Positions 7,732 to 51,294 of a DNA stretch of 64,000 nt are shown here, piece after piece (position 1 is the stretch's first letter; every line of letters begins with the position of its first letter). The stretch is taken from positions 1 through 64,000 of the forward strand of contig CAJTBO010000009.1 in assembly GCA_910573755.1 (NCBI GenBank), given 5' to 3'. This DNA comes from Lachnospiraceae bacterium (GTDB lineage: Bacteria > Bacillota > Clostridia > Lachnospirales > Lachnospiraceae). The translations under genes and the position numbers were made by a program. Below the pieces are notes generated by a model, which worked only from the letters and a program-made list of their open reading frames with translations, did no database searches and was not told the origin of the DNA.

Positions 7732-7924
7732 ATGGAGAAAACCAGCAGGATGACGGTGGAAGAAGAAAGGCGGGTATGTCTCTTCGCATGAGGAGACATG
7801 GGAGTGGGAGAGGCCGACAGCGGACTACGCCACCGCCTATGTCTACAATTTTGATATGAAGGATGGAGAATTTGGGGATATCTTTCTGACGTCAAACAAC
7901 GGGGCGTTGATCAGAAAAGCGTGA
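7732..7924 (+). pseudogene. Frameshifted small mobile-element protein (LPD28-like)
   Basis: The ATG at 7732 has a GGAGG site and reads MEKTSRMTVEEERR before reaching a stop. After a +1 shift near 7769 the reading continues 'YVSSHEETWEWERPTADYAT', then 'GEFGDIFLTSNNGALIRKA' and a stop at 7924. The joined product of about 63 residues resembles small proteins associated with integrative elements in gut Clostridia (LPD28-like, from memory). The break is a single-base frameshift, so a sequencing error is the main alternative. No other mobile genes lie next to it. Confidence 0.5.
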
Positions 7925-8067
7925 GAGCGGCGGAAAATGTTCTGCTGTGAACATAATGACATGATGCCGAGGACAAAAGGCCTATCAGTCTGGAATTGCC
8001 AGAACTGTTTGCGGCTTTTGAGTCGATTAAATGACATCGAGTGTGAAAACAGTAAAAAAGAAAGGGT

Positions 8068-42519: not shown

Positions 42520-43035
42520 TTACGCTTGAGCCTTATATTGTTCATAATGCTGAAGTTTTTTTCTTAATGAGTGATCCTGCTCGAAGTAAAAAGCCGTAAC
42601 TAATAAGCAATATGAATCTCGGCGCTCTACAACAACCATATATCGTTCTTCTTCAAGTAGCATATGTACTCTGGTTGTGTTGCGATACGGTTCACTCCAA
42701 ACTTTTACTCCCTCACATTCTTCACATTGCGTTATATCACAATTATAATTCTCGATAAACGCACGAACCCATCTGATTCTCTCGCATCTTCTAAAATCCG
42801 GTACACGTTCTCCACTTTTTAGATAATCTTGACAAGTTACATGAAAAAATGCCTCTTCCTTTCCATATTCAATCGGATGCTTGCGAATATTTACCTGCTT
42901 TCCTTCAAATATAGGACGTGATTTTATAAAGTCATTCTGAAAAATCTCATATAACGCCCCTTGATATTGAGGATAGTCATTATTATAGTCATCCCAAAAT
43001 TCTAATTTTGGCAACCAACAATTATCTCTTATCAT
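42520..43035 (-). CDS. Small nuclease-like protein, partner of DUF3800 gene
   Basis: 171 residues. The middle carries 'CEECEGVKVW', and the C-terminal part reads 'TTRVHMLLEEERYMVVVERR' then 'YCLLVTAFYFEQDHSLRKKL'. That alternation of hydrophobic strands ending in a helix recalls the small RelE/barnase-like (BECR) nuclease folds seen in phage and toxin proteins; the assignment is tentative. The ATG at 43035 has GGGAGGG at 5-7 nt and overlaps the DUF3800 stop (ATGA), so the two are coupled. It is the last gene of the operon. Confidence 0.5.
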   Translation of the reverse strand: MIRDNCWLPKLEFWDDYNNDYPQYQGALYEIFQNDFIKSRPIFEGKQVNIRKHPIEYGKEEAFFHVTCQDYLKSGERVPDFRRCERIRWVRAFIENYNCDITQCEECEGVKVWSEPYRNTTRVHMLLEEERYMVVVERRDSYCLLVTAFYFEQDHSLRKKLQHYEQYKAQA

Positions 43036-43745
43036 ACTGTCCCTCCCGCTTCCCACGAAAGCAGGTTTATTTTTTCCTCACGCAAAAGCGTTGTTTTTCG
43101 CAATGTATAGCCTGAACGTTCTTTTATCAAATCAATAACTTCTTGTTTTGCACTACTCTTTACAAATCCATCAGGAAATCTGCGATTTTCATAACCGATA
43201 GCACCTATAATAACATCAACTATCTGCATGATTTGAACTTCATCAGATCGTATAGGTTGTAACCGCCGAATCACTTTTTGAGAAAAGTCATACATAGAAT
43301 TGCAGCATACTTCTCTCAATTTTTTTGCTTTTCGAGCAGAGTTAGTATCTTTAATGTCAATATAAACCTCATAGTTATCAGTTGGAGAAAAGATAACTTT
43401 GAGCATATCAAAATACATTTTATAATACCACGTATCGTGTGTTTGATGATAGCGTTCGTGGTTTAACCTTGTCTTATCTAGAATAATGACACCCCGAAAA
43501 TGTAAATCATCATCATCAAAGAAATAATTAACCAAATCTTTGTACAAATCAACTTTTGCCGGGCTGATTTTTGTCCACTTCATTTCCATAGTCTCGGAAA
43601 CATTGTTTCTTTTCTTAATTTGACGAATCCTCTCATTAATTTCTTTCAGTTTCGATTGTGGACACCACACAGCTCCTAACACCATAACATTACTGTTATC
43701 ATGTTCAAGATGACATGTTTCATCACAGTAAACATTATACAACAT
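43032..43745 (-). CDS. DUF3800 protein (RNase H-like fold)
   Basis: 237 residues starting 'MLYNVYCDETCHLEHDNSNV', the DUF3800 opening (Asp-Glu near the N-terminus followed by 'VLGAVW'). Further acidic positions are in 'RGVIILDKTRL', 'YEVYIDIKDTNS' and 'IMQIVDVIIGAIGYENR', consistent with an RNase H-like metal site. DUF3800 proteins are common cargo in phage-defence islands, but their action is not established. It begins 12 bp after hsdR and is coupled to the small gene downstream. Confidence 0.75.
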   Translation of the reverse strand: MLYNVYCDETCHLEHDNSNVMVLGAVWCPQSKLKEINERIRQIKKRNNVSETMEMKWTKISPAKVDLYKDLVNYFFDDDDLHFRGVIILDKTRLNHERYHQTHDTWYYKMYFDMLKVIFSPTDNYEVYIDIKDTNSARKAKKLREVCCNSMYDFSQKVIRRLQPIRSDEVQIMQIVDVIIGAIGYENRRFPDGFVKSSAKQEVIDLIKERSGYTLRKTTLLREEKINLLSWEAGGTV

Positions 43746-43757
43746 ATTTTCACCACC

Positions 43758-46700
43758 TCAATTATCTTTTTTCATTCCGTAATGCACCAGTTCCTCTGCC
43801 ACCATAGATAGTGTTGGTTCTGTATCATAAAGATATGTAACCTTATCCGGTTCTTTTGAAACCTCTGGGCTAATCAGTCCGAAATATTTCTCAAAGAACC
43901 CTTTCAGTTTTTCAATAACTGTCTGTTTCTTCTTATCACGAGAACCTCCACCTCCGAAACGGGAAACGGGCGGCATCAGTCGGTCAACATCCGTGCCGGT
44001 GGTTTTGAGTACGCCATCACGGAAAGCGTTTTCCACAAATTTTCTTGTTTCCTCCGATTTCAATTTTTCTTCAGTGATCAAAATCTGAATATCGGTTTCT
44101 CTCTGCTCTCTGACAAAACGCTGCCAGTCAGTATTGACATTGGTACTTGTGTTGATGGTAGTAATAAAGTTTTCGATTAGTTCCTTTTTAGACCTAAGCT
44201 GCAAGCTGGACTTGATTGCTTTATCAATCGCAACAAGGATTTCCTTATCCTCACAGTTGCCATCGTGATACTTCCCAACCAGCATCAGGATATAGTCAAT
44301 GTTGACTTCCACCTGTTTGACAAGCTCCATTTCAAAGACAACATCATCCATAATGCTGTCCTTGCTTCCCGGTTTCGGCTTGATTTCCTCGTACACATCA
44401 TGGTATGTGCCTGTGTAGTCTTGGAAATCAATCGGGGACAGGATTTCATTTCCGGCAAAGCGATCAAAGGCAGCAAGGATATTTCTCAAACGGAGAATGT
44501 TGCCAAACAGGACAATAAAATCTTTCTTGTTCTGCTCTCCGACAATCGGCTGTCCCAAAGGATATTTCTGCAACAGTTCGGCAATTCGTTCCTCATAACC
44601 TTTCTGCTCACGACCTTTATCATCGACACAACCGTAGTAATAATCCTCATAGGATTTCAAGAGGACAATGCCGTTTGCTTCCTTGTCTCCGAACAATGCA
44701 ATCGCATCGTTGGTAGCTTCTTCAAGATCACGGAAGCAGACAATATTACCAAAGGACTTAACTGAATTGAGGATACGGTTCGTTCTGGAAAATGCCTGTA
44801 TCAGACCGTGCATTTTCAAGTTCTTATCTACCCAAAGGGTGTTAAGTGTTGTTGCATCGAAGCCCGTCAAGAACATGTTGACTACAATCAGCAAATCGAC
44901 TTCACGCTTCTTAACCTTATCGGAAAGGTCTTTGTAGTAATCTTGGAAGCCCTTGCTTGATGTATCGAAATTGGTTTTGAAAATCTTGTTGTAGTCTTTA
45001 ATTGCCCTATCCAGAAAGTCACGGGAACTCTGGTCAAGGTCATCGGTGTCAAAACTTTCATCGTCCAGAATACCATCGGCACTATCCGCTTCGTTTGGAG
45101 CGAATGAGAAGATGGTGGCAATGGTCAAATCTCTGTGCTGTTCTGCAATCTGTTTTTTTAGCTCCAGATAATACTTTTTGCAGACAGGAATAGAACTGAC
45201 GGCAAACATAGAGTTAAAACCGTTTATTCGCTGACCTTTCAGACTGTAATAGGAATTTCGCATGGTCTTTTGGTCGAAGTGTTCCAAAATGTACTTCACA
45301 ACCTCTGTGATACGCTCCGGCGAACTCAATGCTTCCTCGGTGTCAATAGCGGCAACCTGTTTGTCCTGCTTTCCGTTCTTTTGCTTGACTGTGTTGATAT
45401 AGTCGATACGGAACGGCAGAACATTTCCATCGTTGATGGCATCCACAATGGTGTAAGTGTGGAGCTTCGCACCAAAAGCCTGCTCTGTGGTTCTCAAATC
45501 CGGATTGCCGCCTGTTCCGGCATTGACAGCGAAAATAGGTGTACCAGTAAATCCGAAGATATGATAGTCCTTGAAATACTTGTCCACCTTGATTGTCTTT
45601 TCGCCCTTTTTGATTTGCCCTCCCACAATTCGGGTGTGCATATCTCCAAACTGGCTGCGGTGGCACTCGTCAAACACAAGAACAATATGCTTGTTGCGGA
45701 TGGGGTGGCTCGGATTTTTGGTAATGAACACATCCAGCTTCTGAATGGTCGTTACGATAATTCGGGAAGTGCTGTCCCCAAGCTGTCTTTGCAAAATAGC
45801 GGTACTCTTGTTTCCGTTGGCAGCACCTTTCTCAAAGCGGTCATATTCCTTAATGGTCTGGTAGTCCAAGTCCTTACGGTCAACCACAAACAGAACCTTT
45901 TCGATATACGGCAGTCCTGTCGCAAGCTGGGCAGTCTTAAAGGAAGTCAAGGTCTTGCCGCTTCCTGTGGTGTGCCAGATATATCCCCCGGCTTCGATAG
46001 TGCCTGTTTTCTTGTAGTTGGTGGACACTTCAATTCTGTTCAAAATACGTTCGGTAGCAACAATCTGATAGGGGCGCATGACAAGCAGCAATTCCTCGGA
46101 TGTGAACACGCAGTATTTTGTCAGGATATTCAGAATGGTGTGCTTCGCAAAGAATGTCTTTGTGAAATCCACAAGGTCGGGAATGACCTTGTTATTGCCG
46201 TCTGCCCAATAGGAAGTGAACTCAAAGCTGTTGGAAGTTTTCTTGCTGTGCTTCTTGGAGGAATTTTCACTTTCCTTAATGTGGCTTGCTCTGGTGGTAT
46301 TGGAATAATACTTTGTGAATGTGCCGTTGGAGATAACGAAAATCTGCACATACTCATAAAGCCCACAACCAGCCCAGAAGCTATCACGCTGATAACGGTT
46401 GATCTGGTTGAACGCTTCCTTGATAGCAACGCCACGGCGTTTCAGCTCCACATGAACCAGCGGCAGACCGTTCACAAGAATGGTCACATCATATCGGGTG
46501 TCGTGCGTTCCGGCACTTTCCTCATACTGATTGATGACCTGCAAACGGTTGTTGTGGATATTCTTCTTGTCAATCAGAGAGATGTTCATCGTCGTGCCGT
46601 CCTCACGGGTCAGATTTTGAACATAGTCCTCTTGAATTTTTCGGGTCTTTTCCACGATACCCTCATTGGAATTGGCAATCTTGCTTCTGAAAAAGCTGTC

Positions 46701-46940
46701 CCATTCCTTATCCGTAAACTGATAGTTATTGAGTATTTCTAACTGTCTGCGGAGATTGGCAATGAGTGCATCGGCGTTGTGAATGGTCACATACTCATAG
46801 CCCTGTTCGCCCAGCATTTTGATAAATGCCGCTTCCAGAGCCGCTTCACTCTGGTAAGCATCATAGCGTTTGGTTTGTGGCGCATATTCGGTTACAACCG
46901 TACTTTCATTGGTTGAAAGTACGATATGGTAGGTACTCAT
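43758..46940 (-). CDS. hsdR: Type I restriction enzyme, R (endonuclease/translocase) subunit
   Basis: 1,060 residues. The N-terminal PD-(D/E)XK nuclease shows Asp151 and Glu165-x-Lys167 ('DVTILVNG', 'VHVELKRRG'). The SF2 motor has Walker A 'TGSGKT' (325-330), the DEAD-like box 'DECH' (424-427) and a 'FGFTGTPI' motif. A helical C-terminal domain ends with a Lys/Gly-rich 'GGGGSRDKKKQ' patch. It cuts unmethylated DNA after translocation when joined to HsdM and HsdS. The gene is complete and tightly packed between the HEPN-like and DUF3800 genes. Confidence 0.95.
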   Translation of the reverse strand: MSTYHIVLSTNESTVVTEYAPQTKRYDAYQSEAALEAAFIKMLGEQGYEYVTIHNADALIANLRRQLEILNNYQFTDKEWDSFFRSKIANSNEGIVEKTRKIQEDYVQNLTREDGTTMNISLIDKKNIHNNRLQVINQYEESAGTHDTRYDVTILVNGLPLVHVELKRRGVAIKEAFNQINRYQRDSFWAGCGLYEYVQIFVISNGTFTKYYSNTTRASHIKESENSSKKHSKKTSNSFEFTSYWADGNNKVIPDLVDFTKTFFAKHTILNILTKYCVFTSEELLLVMRPYQIVATERILNRIEVSTNYKKTGTIEAGGYIWHTTGSGKTLTSFKTAQLATGLPYIEKVLFVVDRKDLDYQTIKEYDRFEKGAANGNKSTAILQRQLGDSTSRIIVTTIQKLDVFITKNPSHPIRNKHIVLVFDECHRSQFGDMHTRIVGGQIKKGEKTIKVDKYFKDYHIFGFTGTPIFAVNAGTGGNPDLRTTEQAFGAKLHTYTIVDAINDGNVLPFRIDYINTVKQKNGKQDKQVAAIDTEEALSSPERITEVVKYILEHFDQKTMRNSYYSLKGQRINGFNSMFAVSSIPVCKKYYLELKKQIAEQHRDLTIATIFSFAPNEADSADGILDDESFDTDDLDQSSRDFLDRAIKDYNKIFKTNFDTSSKGFQDYYKDLSDKVKKREVDLLIVVNMFLTGFDATTLNTLWVDKNLKMHGLIQAFSRTNRILNSVKSFGNIVCFRDLEEATNDAIALFGDKEANGIVLLKSYEDYYYGCVDDKGREQKGYEERIAELLQKYPLGQPIVGEQNKKDFIVLFGNILRLRNILAAFDRFAGNEILSPIDFQDYTGTYHDVYEEIKPKPGSKDSIMDDVVFEMELVKQVEVNIDYILMLVGKYHDGNCEDKEILVAIDKAIKSSLQLRSKKELIENFITTINTSTNVNTDWQRFVREQRETDIQILITEEKLKSEETRKFVENAFRDGVLKTTGTDVDRLMPPVSRFGGGGSRDKKKQTVIEKLKGFFEKYFGLISPEVSKEPDKVTYLYDTEPTLSMVAEELVHYGMKKDN

Positions 46941-46944
46941 AATA

Positions 46945-47451
46945 TCACCTCAATTCTTCATCTTTTCCGTTTTCTCTAACTAACGATTCATAAACAAATT
47001 TTAGAATATGCGCAAACGCAAACAAGAACACGGGATTCGCCGACATTGCTTTTGCTTCGCACATGTATCTATACTCAGGAAATGCTTGATCTTGTTCTTT
47101 TAGGCATAAGTAAAATTCTTTTTCCCTATTTTTTATACCAATATTTTTAGATATATATTCCTGCTCATTCTCGGGCAATTTTTCAAACAGTCCCTTTAAT
47201 CCATGCGTCTTTGAGAAATCCACGCCAAAGCCATATAATATTGCTTTCAAAAATAACTCACATGAAAATGCTACATTTGCTAATGCTACAGGCATCCAAT
47301 TTGAATTTTTTATTGTAAAACAAGATACCTCGAAATACTGAGTAGCTAATTTATAAAAGCTTTGTCTCAAAAATTCTTGGTCTTTTTTACGATCAAACTT
47401 TCTGGTTTTTGATAAATCAAAAGACGCAAAACCTTCGTCGCTTTTTATCAT
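46945..47451 (-). CDS. HEPN-like protein inside the restriction operon
   Basis: 168 residues, mostly helical. 'ANVAFSCELFLKAILYGFGV' followed by 'KTHGLKGLFEKLPENEQEYI' is the usual signature of a HEPN domain (helix with Glu-Leu-x-Leu-Lys, then 'H.L..L...LP'). The canonical R-x4-6-H RNase motif is not visible; 'YRYMCEAK' near residue 128 is the nearest match and lacks the His. Its stop is 4 bp before hsdR and its start overlaps the half-hsdS stop (ATGA). HEPN proteins in defence loci are often RNases; here it could be an effector or a non-catalytic partner. Confidence 0.6.
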   Translation of the reverse strand: MIKSDEGFASFDLSKTRKFDRKKDQEFLRQSFYKLATQYFEVSCFTIKNSNWMPVALANVAFSCELFLKAILYGFGVDFSKTHGLKGLFEKLPENEQEYISKNIGIKNREKEFYLCLKEQDQAFPEYRYMCEAKAMSANPVFLFAFAHILKFVYESLVRENGKDEELR

Positions 47452-48026
47452 ATATTCTCTCCCCTAAATGACAGCAGCTTATCACGATAGTATTCGTATT
47501 GCTTAGTCCTCGCTTCAATCTCTGCTGGTAAGCCGGAAGAAATGTCATTGCAGAGGGCATCGAAGCGGTCAAGTATGCCTACAATATGCTCTTGTTCCTT
47601 GATAGCAGGAAGCGGAATAGGTATTGTGTTAAGGTTCTTCTGGTTCAGCTTCGGTTGTGCCCCACCAGAAATAAATTGTGAAAGGTCGATAGAGTTCAAG
47701 TAGAACTCGACATATCTTCTCGTTGCATAACAGTCTAACTTCAAAACATGAGCATGGTTATTTACCCAATTCTTGCCCGATATAGAGAACGCAATAGGTG
47801 TGCTTCGTGCCACCAGATTGTTACCATCCTCGGAAACAAGCAGATAATCGCCATCAAAGATATAGCCGTTCACATAATCTACAATGCCGGATGCCCCATA
47901 GTAAGGGTACTCGCCAGCTTCACGATTGCCACTTGTGATAGGCTTTCTCTTGCTATCATGGTTTTCAGAAATCATGTTCAGCGTAACAGAAACAAAACCA
48001 AAAACATATTGACAAAGGACAATCAA
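47448..48026 (-). CDS. hsdS: Half-length HsdS (single target-recognition domain)
   Basis: About 192 residues. One target-recognition domain ('SENHDSKRKPITSGNREAGE', 'YPYYGASGIVDYVNGYIF', 'NNHAHVLKLDCYATRRYVEF') is followed by one conserved helical repeat ('ILDRFDALCNDISSGLPAEI', 'KQYEYYRDKLLSF'). The start is uncertain; a TTG at 48026 with no clear site opens the frame and several residues upstream of the domain look unnatural. It follows the full hsdS by 4 bp. A dimer of half-subunits could replace the full S, or it may be a reserve specificity cassette. Confidence 0.75.
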   Translation of the reverse strand: MIVLCQYVFGFVSVTLNMISENHDSKRKPITSGNREAGEYPYYGASGIVDYVNGYIFDGDYLLVSEDGNNLVARSTPIAFSISGKNWVNNHAHVLKLDCYATRRYVEFYLNSIDLSQFISGGAQPKLNQKNLNTIPIPLPAIKEQEHIVGILDRFDALCNDISSGLPAEIEARTKQYEYYRDKLLSFRGENI

Positions 48027-48030
48027 GCCA

Positions 48031-49242
48031 TTAAGCTCGTCTGTCTGTCAAGATTATCTTGCCAGTTGCAGCATAAGTCAAGAGAGCATCACGATAGAAT
48101 TTGTATTGCTTCTGTCTTGCTTCAATCTCCGCAGGCAGTCCGATTTTGAGGTCAGAGCAGATAGCATCGAAGTTATCCAGAACATACACAAGGCGTTTCT
48201 GAACATCAAGTGCCGGAACAGGAATTTCAAGAGACAGTACCAGAGACGAGTTCAGGTCGCCTCTTGCTCCTTGTTTTCTGCTAATGAGTTCATCATACTT
48301 GTTGTAAATGCAGTAGTAGATGTATCTATACAAGGCTTTGCTCTCATCAATCTCCAAATTCAGACAATGCTGATTGGTGGTTGCTTTTATCTTGTTAATA
48401 GCACATCTTCCTGCGGTAGCACCAGAAATCGCAACAATCACGCAATTCTCCGGTATCCATTTTACTGCGGTCTCTGCAACTGCTTTTTCAGTTATATAGC
48501 TATCCACTTCAGTAATTTCATTAAAGCGAACATCCTGCGTCCTTATCCACGGAATAGTGCCATTCTCATAGTAGTCAGAATTTCCTTTAGTAGGAGTAGA
48601 GCCGGAACAGCTCTTTTTGACAACAGTACGGAGCTGGACGATGGGAATATCCACACCATTGAAGGTCAGTAGCTTATTCCTATAATAATTATATTGTTTT
48701 TGTCTTGCTGTAAGCTCCGCTGTAAGCTCCGCTGTAAGCTCCGTGAAATTGTCCAGAATACGGACAATTTCACTCTGCACTTCCATTGGAGGGATGGGAA
48801 CTAAGCGTTTATTCATGCTTGCCATCGAAACATGGGGCATTGTAGATTTTGTTAATGACTTTGATATATCATCTATGTCTTTCGCCAAAAAGTAATACAA
48901 GAACCTCTTATTCAACACCGTTTCGTCAAACACGAGTTTCCAAATATGATAATGGAAAATCACCGTTTCGCCAGACCAAATTTGCGGACCGAGTGTTGCT
49001 GCCCATGTATATAACAAATCTCCGTTTTCACAGTATTTATCCTCATCCAATTCTAAATCAGAATAGTACCACTTATCATTCGTATAAAAGTTCCCCACTC
49101 GAAGAACCTTGTATTTTCCCTCATCAAGTAATTCTGCTTGTTTGTACGCTCGACCATTAAGGAAGCGAACAACCTCGCCTAAAGGCTTGAAAGACACACC
49201 TTGAGGGCAGAAATTTTCAATCAACAAATCCAATTTACTCAT
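48031..49242 (-). CDS. hsdS: Type I restriction enzyme, S (specificity) subunit
   Basis: 403 residues with two target-recognition domains (about 10-155 and about 200-355) and two conserved helical repeats ('KQYNYYRNKLLTF' at about 182 and 'KQYKFYRDALLTY' near the end). Between the first domain and its helix there are three units of Thr-x-Glu-Leu ('TELTAELTAELTARQ', about 167-181). In EcoR124I and its relatives the number of TAEL units sets the length of the non-specific DNA spacer. The start overlaps the upstream 71-residue gene by 8 bp. Confidence 0.93.
   Translation of the reverse strand: MSKLDLLIENFCPQGVSFKPLGEVVRFLNGRAYKQAELLDEGKYKVLRVGNFYTNDKWYYSDLELDEDKYCENGDLLYTWAATLGPQIWSGETVIFHYHIWKLVFDETVLNKRFLYYFLAKDIDDISKSLTKSTMPHVSMASMNKRLVPIPPMEVQSEIVRILDNFTELTAELTAELTARQKQYNYYRNKLLTFNGVDIPIVQLRTVVKKSCSGSTPTKGNSDYYENGTIPWIRTQDVRFNEITEVDSYITEKAVAETAVKWIPENCVIVAISGATAGRCAINKIKATTNQHCLNLEIDESKALYRYIYYCIYNKYDELISRKQGARGDLNSSLVLSLEIPVPALDVQKRLVYVLDNFDAICSDLKIGLPAEIEARQKQYKFYRDALLTYAATGKIILTDRRA
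48707..48742. repeat. Three tandem 12-bp repeats in hsdS (TAEL spacer repeats)
   Basis: The unit gctgtaagctcc occurs three times without interruption. On the coding strand each unit encodes Glu-Leu-Thr-Ala. Gain or loss of one unit by slippage keeps the frame and would change the recognised sequence. Confidence 0.9.
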
Positions 49243-49450
49243 TTTTCTCCCCCTTTAATTTGAGATATTGTTTCTTCCATGCTCGTGATGGTTTCTTACA
49301 GATACAATCTTTAGAAGCAAAAGCGCATACATCTGATAAACTATTATTAGCACAAATATCAGGATTGTTCTGCCTGCATCCGTAGGTTTGGGTTTCTGTA
49401 TCTAATTCATTGAGAGGCGCAGAAAACGGTATTTTCAAGTTACTATTCAT
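49235..49450 (-). CDS. 71-residue Cys-rich protein between hsdM and hsdS
   Basis: 71 residues with Cys in 'YGCRQNNPDICANN', 'DVCAFASKDCICKKPSR' and a basic end 'AWKKQYLKLKGE'. Five Cys within 30 residues suggest a small zinc- or iron-binding fold. It overlaps hsdM by 4 bp (ATGA) and hsdS by 8 bp, so it is built into the operon rather than a chance frame. I do not recognise the family. It might regulate or assemble the methyltransferase. Confidence 0.6.
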   Translation of the reverse strand: MNSNLKIPFSAPLNELDTETQTYGCRQNNPDICANNSLSDVCAFASKDCICKKPSRAWKKQYLKLKGEKNE

Positions 49451-51015
49451 TGTGCCACCTCGATTTCTGCGATAATCTTCGCTATTTCCTCACGGAGAAT
49501 CTGTTCACGGGCTACGATTTCTTCAATCTCTGCATTGAGTTTCACAATATCGATAACTTCTCTCGTATCCTCCTGCTCAACATAGGTACTGACAGATAGA
49601 TTGTAGTCCTGCGCTTTGATCTCGTCATAGTTGGCAAGGTGGGAAAAGTGTTGCGTACCGTTTCGGGAAACAAATTCGTCCACGATATGAGCGATATTTT
49701 CCTCGGTCAAGCGGTTGTTGTTTGTTACCTTGACAAACTCGTTGGAAGCATCAATAAACAGGGTCTTGTTGTCGGACTTGCTGCGCTTCAGAACCATGAT
49801 GCAGGTCGCAATGGAAGTTCCGAAGAACAGGTTGCTCGGCAACTGAATGATGCAGTCAATGAAGTTGTTGTCAATCAAATACTGACGAATTTTCTTTTCA
49901 GCTCCACCACGGTACATGATACCGGGGAAGCAAACGATAGCCGCTGTTCCGTTGGTAGCAAGCCACGCCAGAGAGTGCATGATAAAAGCAAGGTCAGCCT
50001 TGGACTTCGGCGCAAGCACTCCGGCAGGGGAAAAACGGGGGTCATTTATCAGAACAGGGTTGTCATCGCCCTCCCACTTGATAGAGTAAGGGGGATTTGA
50101 AACAATAACCTCAAACGGTTCATCATCCCAATGCTGCGGAGACAGCAGGGTGTCCTCGTGGGCAATATCAAACTTGTCAAAGTCAATGTCATGCAGGAAC
50201 ATATTGATACGGCAAAGGTTGTATGTAGTCAGATTGATTTCCTGTCCATAGAAACCTTGACGCACATTCTCTTTACCGAGGATTTTTGCCGCTTTCAGAA
50301 GCAGAGAACCAGAACCGCAAGCAGGGTCATAAACCTTGTTGACCTCTGTTTTCCCAGCAACAGCCATGCGGGTCAGAAGCTCGGAAACCTCTTGGGGAGT
50401 GAAGAACTCACCGCCGCTTTTTCCGGCGTTGGATGCGTACATACTCATAAGGTATTCGTAAGCATCACCGAAAGCGTCAATAGAATTGTCCTTGTAGTTG
50501 CCCAAGCCCATGTTTGCCACGCCCTCGATCAGCTTCACGAGGTTCGCATTACGTTTGGCAACGGTAGCCCCCAGCTTGTTGCTGTTGACATCAATATCAT
50601 CAAACAATCCCGCAAAATTATCTTCGCTTTCGCTGCCCTTTGCTGATTCCTCAATGTGGTTAAAGGCAGCTTCCAAGGTCATGTTCAAATTTTCGTCATT
50701 TGCGGCTTTTTTTCTGACATTGCAGAAAAGCTCGCTGGGCAGAATGAAGAATCCCTTAGTTTTAACCAAGTCCTCACGAGCCTGTTCAGCATTTTCATCG
50801 GACAACTATGCATAATCAAAGTCCACTTCTCCGGCTTCAATCTCGCCCTCATTGATGTAATTTGTTAGGTTTTCAGATATATAGCGATAGAACATCATAC
50901 CCAGCACATAGGACTTGAAATCCCATCCGTCCACGCTTCCACGCAGTTCATCAGCAATCGCCCATATCACCCGATGGAGTTCATCACGCTCTTGTTCTTT
51001 TCTAATATCAGCCAT
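49447..51015 (-). pseudogene. hsdM: Type I methyltransferase M subunit gene split by an in-frame UAG
   Basis: The start at 51015 has AAGGAGA at 7 nt. Codons 1-69 encode the HsdM N-terminal domain ('RDELHRVIWAIADELRGSVD', 'FYRYISENLTNYINEG'). Codon 70 is TAG (50806-50808), and the same frame continues 'LSDENAEQAREDLVKTKGFF' for 452 codons with the SAM motif 'DPACGSGSLLLKAA' and the catalytic 'NPPY' ('VSNPPYSIKW'). Only one base separates TAG from AAG or similar sense codons. A TTG immediately after the stop could restart translation. If the stop is real and not bypassed, host DNA is not protected by this system and the complex is inactive. Confidence 0.85.
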
Positions 51016-51232
51016 TTTCTTTCTCCTTTTCATCGGGAATAAAATCCAGAATATCATCTACCTTGCAACCAAGAGCAAGACATATCTTTTCGATACTATC
51101 CAAAGATACATACTGGTCACGCCTTAGTCGGGTTAGAATATTAGCACTAAATCCAGCTTTCTCCGTCAATTCGGCGGTCGGAATGCCCCGGTCTATCAGC
51201 AAGTGAAATAGTTTTTTATATGTTACAGCCAT
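51008..51232 (-). CDS. XRE-family regulator leading the restriction operon
   Basis: 74 residues: HTH 'DRGIPTAELTEKAGFSANIL' and 'RLRRDQYVSLDSIEKICLAL', ending in an acidic tail. The ATG at 51232 has AAGGAGG; it overlaps the hsdM start by 8 bp. It is placed like a controller protein that times restriction genes. A palindrome over its promoter suggests autoregulation. Upstream, at about 51335-51371, an imperfect hairpin with a T tract on the minus strand may end transcription from the broken HTH gene at 51.5 kb. Confidence 0.85.
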   Translation of the reverse strand: MAVTYKKLFHLLIDRGIPTAELTEKAGFSANILTRLRRDQYVSLDSIEKICLALGCKVDDILDFIPDEKEKENG

Positions 51233-51261
51233 ATAGTCCTCCTTGCCATGATAATCACTCA

Positions 51262-51294
51262 TGATATTATATCACGAAAATGTGAAAATTTCAA
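51262..51294 (-). promoter_or_regulatory. Promoter and operator of the restriction operon
   Basis: On the minus strand TTGAAA (51294-51289), 17 bp, TATAAT (51271-51266). A perfect 13-bp palindrome TGATAT-t-ATATCA (51262-51274) covers the -10 box, a likely site for the XRE protein. Confidence 0.8.

Follow-up and report, generated by a model that had tools for sequence, protein, structure and literature searches.

The interval between hsdS and hsdR in a type IC restriction-modification (R-M) operon of the window (the whole 64,000-nucleotide stretch of Lachnospiraceae DNA analyzed here) encodes a stand-alone HEPN-domain protein, and in related operons the same interval is a cargo site with swappable contents. 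The HEPN protein is probably an extra layer of phage defense. More specifically, we are about evenly persuaded that it is an exchangeable, RNA-directed effector cassette of HEPN-T-like type, tied to the Hsd methylase/specificity complex and PrrC-like in action without being PrrC.

The operon lies on the minus strand in the order HTH regulator, hsdM, 71-aa open reading frame (ORF), hsdS, half-size hsdS′, HEPN, hsdR, and PDC-M04A/B, with the following features.

42520 to 43745, minus strand: PDC-M04A and PDC-M04B pair directly after hsdR (PADLOC, 310.1 and 229.3 bits)
43758 to 46940, minus strand: hsdR, type IC-like, 1060 aa (EcoR124_C PF12008, 221.8 bits; HSDR_N; SWI2_SNF2; PADLOC REase_I, 1152.5 bits)
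46945 to 47451, minus strand: stand-alone HEPN-domain gene, 168 aa, proposed effector cassette (PF05168, 28.2 bits; invariant residues; helical model)
47448 to 48026, minus strand: half-size hsdS′ with one target-recognition domain, TTG start as listed (Methylase_S, 90 bits)
48031 to 49242, minus strand: hsdS with two target-recognition domains (Methylase_S, 172.4 bits, two stretches)
49235 to 49450, minus strand: 71-aa Cys-rich ORF between hsdM and hsdS (ORF list; genome search)
49447 to 51057, minus strand: hsdM region with an in-frame TAG at 50806 to 50808 (N6_Mtase, 393.9 bits, 49447 to 50805; HsdM_N, 50806 to 51057)
51008 to 51262, minus strand: HTH regulator at the operon head (HTH_26, 61.8 bits)

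The operon thus contains hsdM, hsdS, and an EcoR124-like hsdR, with hsdM interrupted by its in-frame stop, and the EcoR124_C match on HsdR bears out the type IC label given in an earlier, sequence-only reading of this DNA. The PDC-M04A/B pair constitutes a second defense cargo in the operon and, by near-identical sequence, also lies behind hsdR in genome G172. The 71-aa Cys-rich ORF, which G172 lacks at the corresponding place, has eight matches in 6 of 150 family genomes (three of the eight in its own genome), and in seven cases the contig also has an hsdR or hsdS match no more than about 5 kb away; it is possibly a small type I accessory protein. A short GACA repeat is present at the hsdS/hsdS′ junction (window 48000 to 48060), and in the related operons L022, L024, L058, L070, and L088 this junction has longer tetranucleotide repeats that stay in frame and translate as DRQT or NERT; such repeats suggest phase variation of HsdS through repeat length.

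The HEPN gene has an ATG start, shares 4 bp (ATGA) at its 5′ end with hsdS′, and ends 4 bp before the start of hsdR at 46940. The sequence AGGGGAGAGA stands immediately 5′ of its ATG, and GAGGTGAT, within its 3′ end, stands immediately 5′ of the hsdR ATG. None of 2,000 mononucleotide shuffles of its 507 nt yielded an open frame of 168 codons. Its GC content is 0.327, compared to a window mean of 0.493, and it is the AT-richest of 635 window blocks of 507 nt, which fits an imported gene; there is one copy in its own genome. Coordinates, Pfam match, and shuffles all agree with the sequence-only reading that a real 168-residue HEPN-like gene occupies the hsdS-hsdR interval, with an ATGA overlap upstream and 4 bp to hsdR.

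One might suppose instead that the window strain is losing the operon and that the HEPN gene is a functionless remnant. The stop in hsdM, 83 codons into the listed ORF, points this way, as does a version of the operon at locus L001, which has lost HEPN residues 1 to 108 and much of hsdR and keeps residues 109 to 168 at 95% identity beside the cut-down hsdR. The L001 locus has the window operon in a decayed state and is therefore not an independent case; at about 7826 to 7988, where the 5′ part of its HEPN gene was lost, an inverted repeat resembling a small mobile element is visible by eye. In the window, however, the HEPN, hsdR, hsdS, and PDC-M04 frames are all open, and the hsdM frame is open again immediately after the TAG, which may be a real loss, a sequencing error, or a bypassed codon. 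We regard a functionless remnant as very improbable.

Pfam assigns the HEPN model PF05168 to residues 52 to 110 of the window protein (E = 2.3e-6, 28.2 bits, cutoff 22) and, at E values up to 1, nothing else; neither an NTPase domain in this search nor an R-x4-6-H motif in the sequence was found, as the sequence-only reading had also reported. No NCBIfam or PADLOC (PADLOC-DB 2.0.0) model matches the protein at E values up to 1, and no AbiV-named match appears at this threshold in Pfam or PADLOC, libraries that presumably include AbiV models. Twelve members of the family described below were scanned with PF05168: two pass the cutoff (the window protein, 28.2 bits, and G030, 26.9 bits), six score below it (14.7 to 20.5 bits), and four have no match at E values up to 0.5 to 1. 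Relatives at 19 to 32% identity have fixed residues in common: E65, K69, H83, L88, F124, R128, and Y129 are invariant in all 11 aligned members (21 to 30% identical to the window protein) and E132 nearly so, and the L098 member, outside this alignment, keeps E65, K69, H83, R128, and Y129. An AlphaFold2 model built from six sequences (mean pLDDT, 78; pTM, 0.74) is all helical, with predicted helices at residues 21 to 49, 53 to 74, 85 to 90, 94 to 103, 109 to 128, and 140 to 160, four of them long, and residues 1 to 18 unordered. This predicted fold is consistent with HEPN, though it does not prove it; sequence searches for relatives of solved structure returned four weak unrelated matches in one case and a single match (E = 0.41) in the other.

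The missing R-x4-6-H motif need not imply a missing active site. According to the family descriptions in PMC3710099, AbiV and some PF05168 proteins have an altered form of this motif; AF0298-type HEPN-T proteins and AbiV retain its basic residue but not its histidine, have another conserved histidine upstream, and are proposed to use an alternative active site. The same descriptions note an Ex3[KR] motif in many HEPN families. H83, R128, and E65-x3-K69 of the window protein fit this alternative site, and the window protein resembles AbiV in lacking the motif histidine and having another conserved one. Because H83 and R128 are invariant in all 11 rows and such a site has been proposed, we do not take loss of the motif as decisive. 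It could also be read as the mark of a non-catalytic regulator or structural subunit, which would bind RNA or protein and tune Hsd assembly or operon expression without being toxic. PMC3710099 does suggest, in its family descriptions, a non-catalytic role for some motif-less HEPN domains, for example in part of the MtlR family, and one distant relative is fused to HsdM (see below). Against this stand the invariance of charged residues of a kind typical for active sites and the other cargo of the slot, which includes PrrC, Fic, and kinase genes; we consider a non-catalytic role improbable.

We surveyed the hsdS-hsdR slot by searching 200 genomes from the family and 291 from the class with the N-terminal 300 residues of HsdR, accepting HsdR N termini at least 69% identical. 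The gene before hsdR could be read in 34 of 35 loci (12 from the family search and 22 of 23 from the class search, with a second G670 copy left out), hsdS genes being recognized by eye; the more distant L028, L030, L031, L032, and L034, in which no hsdS precedes hsdR, were excluded. A full or half specificity gene directly precedes hsdR in 24 of the 34 operons, leaving the slot without cargo, and a non-Hsd gene intervenes in 10, one of them the window with its HEPN gene. The slot cargo of the others is as follows.

G172: Stk2 (755.6 bits)
G530: protein kinase (Pkinase, 98.1 bits)
G120: BroN-Fic (PADLOC PDC-S04)
G257: Fic (PADLOC PDC-S72)
G009: DUF4238
G171: DUF4238 and a 247-aa protein
G141: 221-aa protein (sub-threshold Apea-HEPN match)
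G584: 220-aa protein without a family, membrane-like by eye
G433 (HsdR N terminus 76% identical): PrrC (PADLOC, 317.3 bits over most of the model; Pfam AAA_13, 33.4 bits, cutoff 36)

Different defense genes thus occupy one site in related operons. In the closest operon, that of G172 (HsdR N terminus 95% identical, same two genes behind hsdR), Stk2 rather than HEPN lies between the end of hsdS′ and the start of hsdR. Since these two operons also have different recognition parts in hsdS′, the HEPN/Stk2 exchange need not have been a single event. Two proteins without a significant family match (L021, 740 to 1483, plus strand; L095, 8282 to 9115, plus strand) contain R-x4-H (RNWLLH and RSSAVH) and may be further HEPN effectors; one of them occupies the hsdS-hsdR slot.

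PrrC is the classic tRNA-cutting toxin guarding a restriction enzyme. In EcoprrI it occupies the same type IC slot as the window HEPN gene, and in G433 the orthologous slot itself encodes PrrC, which substantiates the earlier description of this interval as the prrC position, even if PrrC and HEPN each appear there once and the slot is mostly empty or filled with other genes. The window protein differs from the EcoprrI PrrC in having no NTPase part, and hhalign detects no homology between it and the G433 PrrC, the one PrrC compared (probability, 0.1%). A reduced PrrC is therefore unsupported by sequence, and of the earlier proposal of a reduced guard toxin in the prrC position, the HEPN protein and the position stand, and a derivation from PrrC is not shown. 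Nor is this a HEPN-MNT (HepT) toxin-antitoxin pair; Pfam finds no MNT nucleotidyltransferase among ten operon proteins.

Cargo in R-M operons has been noticed before. A 2024 preprint by Payne et al. (10.1101/2024.01.29.577857) reportedly, going by its title, deals with defenses embedded in immune systems, and it may already list relatives of the protein described here; the slot cargo matching PDC-S04 and PDC-S72 would be of this kind. In E. coli, DarTG2 lies between hsdS and hsdR, in what the authors of PMC12255303 term a "potential recombination hotspot"; it is likewise a defense module embedded in the slot, but a toxin-antitoxin pair rather than a single HEPN gene. Table 1 of PMC3710099 lists HEPN-T (PF05168) as clustering with R-M operons in several instances. 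The window protein shares with HEPN-T, as described there, the HEPN match, a conserved histidine off the usual motif, a stand-alone architecture, and the R-M linkage; it differs in being longer (168 aa), in having relatives mostly below the PF05168 cutoff, and in a family linkage specific to hsdS/hsdM neighbors, with one HsdM fusion. Cargo in the hsdS-hsdR slot and clustering of HEPN-T with R-M operons are already known. To these the present analysis adds two close operons that differ in carrying HEPN or Stk2, a PrrC in the orthologous slot, and the single HsdM-HEPN frame.

We accepted 13 loci as members of the HEPN family (window, L001, G293, G030, G578, G498, G1285, G1164, L046 to L049, and L098), leaving out G669 (a short match, antisense to another frame) and G1219 (E = 7.6e-4), along with G460 and nine weaker non-own matches that served as a linkage control only. 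Type I operons hold 6 of the 13 and the other 7 lie outside R-M, a mixed answer as to whether homologs are found mainly outside restriction operons. Among those outside, the G498 gene follows the zacC gene of a ZacABC set at a distance of 242 bp, the L047 gene adjoins a SIR2/ThsA-like gene, those of G1285 and G030 lie, by eye, within an apparent mobilizable element and an apparent integrated element, respectively, and no system was recognized by eye around L046, L048, and L049. Searches by tblastn gave no match to the window or G1285 protein in plasmids and phages and none to the G1164 HEPN segment or the G293 protein in plasmids, and no further copies were found in the genera of G293 (six genomes), the window (nine), or G1164 (two).

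These dispersed relatives fit an independent passenger, that is, an autonomous phage defense that uses the expression of the operon without contacting Hsd, in a slot that is merely tolerant of recombination. So do the unrelated cargos of the slot in different operons, and an intact HEPN gene beside an interrupted hsdM is easier to accept if HEPN is independent of Hsd. What speaks against a passenger is that relatives recur beside hsdS or hsdM in differing orders: hsdR-hsdS-HEPN-hsdM with overlapping genes in G293, HEPN directly before hsdS in an hsdM...hsdS...hsdR operon in G578, and hsdM-HEPN-hsdS in L098, with a 4-bp hsdM/HEPN overlap and an hsdS scoring 78.2 bits with Methylase_S. The HsdM fusion speaks against it too, and we think a passenger possible but rather unlikely.

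In the fusion (G1164; L096, 5798 to 7813, minus strand), HsdM and HEPN form a single 671-aa frame that is followed by hsdS. Residues 1 to 496 match a type I methylase model (584.3 bits), and the HEPN segment is recognized by hhalign (probability, 97.9%; E = 4e-13) and scores 20.5 bits with PF05168, just below the cutoff. According to section 10 of the 2013 survey PMC3710099, fusions to methylases do not occur among R-M-linked HEPN domains; this frame is an exception. The titles and abstract openings retrieved from the literature contain no HsdM-HEPN fusion, which is not proof of absence, and our example is one fusion in one genome. The HsdR beside it starts with G578-like sequence, and Pfam finds DUF4145 in G578. 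Together with the hsdM-HEPN-hsdS order of L098, the fusion lends weight to the idea, also raised in the sequence-only reading, of a structural partner of the complex.

Seven members and ten weaker PF05168-like matches (17 genomes) were compared for their neighbors: four of the seven lie beside an hsdS, versus none of the ten (Fisher's exact test, P = 0.015; P = 0.036 when the window, selected on account of its context, is left out). Six of the ten control genomes lack any hsdS, and against the remaining four the difference is not significant (P of about 0.11, calculated by hand); the context was read for G460 among the ten, and the control supports hsdS linkage weakly. Defense genes cluster in any case. 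The Fisher test carries less of the case for Hsd linkage than do the fusion and the varied orders of the operons. None of the eight inner branches in a tree of 11 members is well supported, so one origin of the linkage is not separable from several.

An effector tied to Hsd seems to us most likely because of its position and company. It would act on RNA, most likely via the alternative site E65-x3-K69, H83, and R128, and would be kept on or near the methylase/specificity complex; a phage that disabled or overwhelmed the restriction enzyme would then release or activate it, and the infected cell would stop growing. We infer the RNA target, docking, toxicity, and trigger in this scheme, which agrees with the general model in PMC3710099, as far as it concerns R-M-linked HEPN proteins, of an RNA-directed effector beside the restriction enzyme as a second line of defense. 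The stop in hsdM, if real, means that the methylase was lost while the HEPN frame stayed intact, and the cell should then not tolerate a toxin that nothing but the complete Hsd complex silences. This leaves an erroneous or bypassed stop, a HEPN protein that has to be activated instead of released, or a passenger. We count this stop against an Hsd-linked effector, along with the seven loci outside R-M, the missing R-x4-6-H, the sub-cutoff PF05168 scores, the single HEPN gene in 34 operons, the single fusion, and the weak linkage control.

The fusion indicates the methylase as a partner. The HEPN clade could conceivably be a fourth Hsd subunit that docks on HsdM, of which it is a part in G1164; the modification enzyme itself would then bring along a domain for attacking RNA, set off by any disturbance of methylation or restriction. 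We judge this unlikely; if it were true, the various cargo proteins would use one common surface of the methylase for docking and sensing, and the slot would be a general effector port. The HsdM-HEPN frame offers a concrete candidate for such a contact. Related operons that carry HEPN, PrrC, Stk2, Fic, DUF4238, or nothing in one slot form a natural comparison set, with which one can test whether control by the Hsd complex extends to any effector plugged into it or is confined to PrrC.
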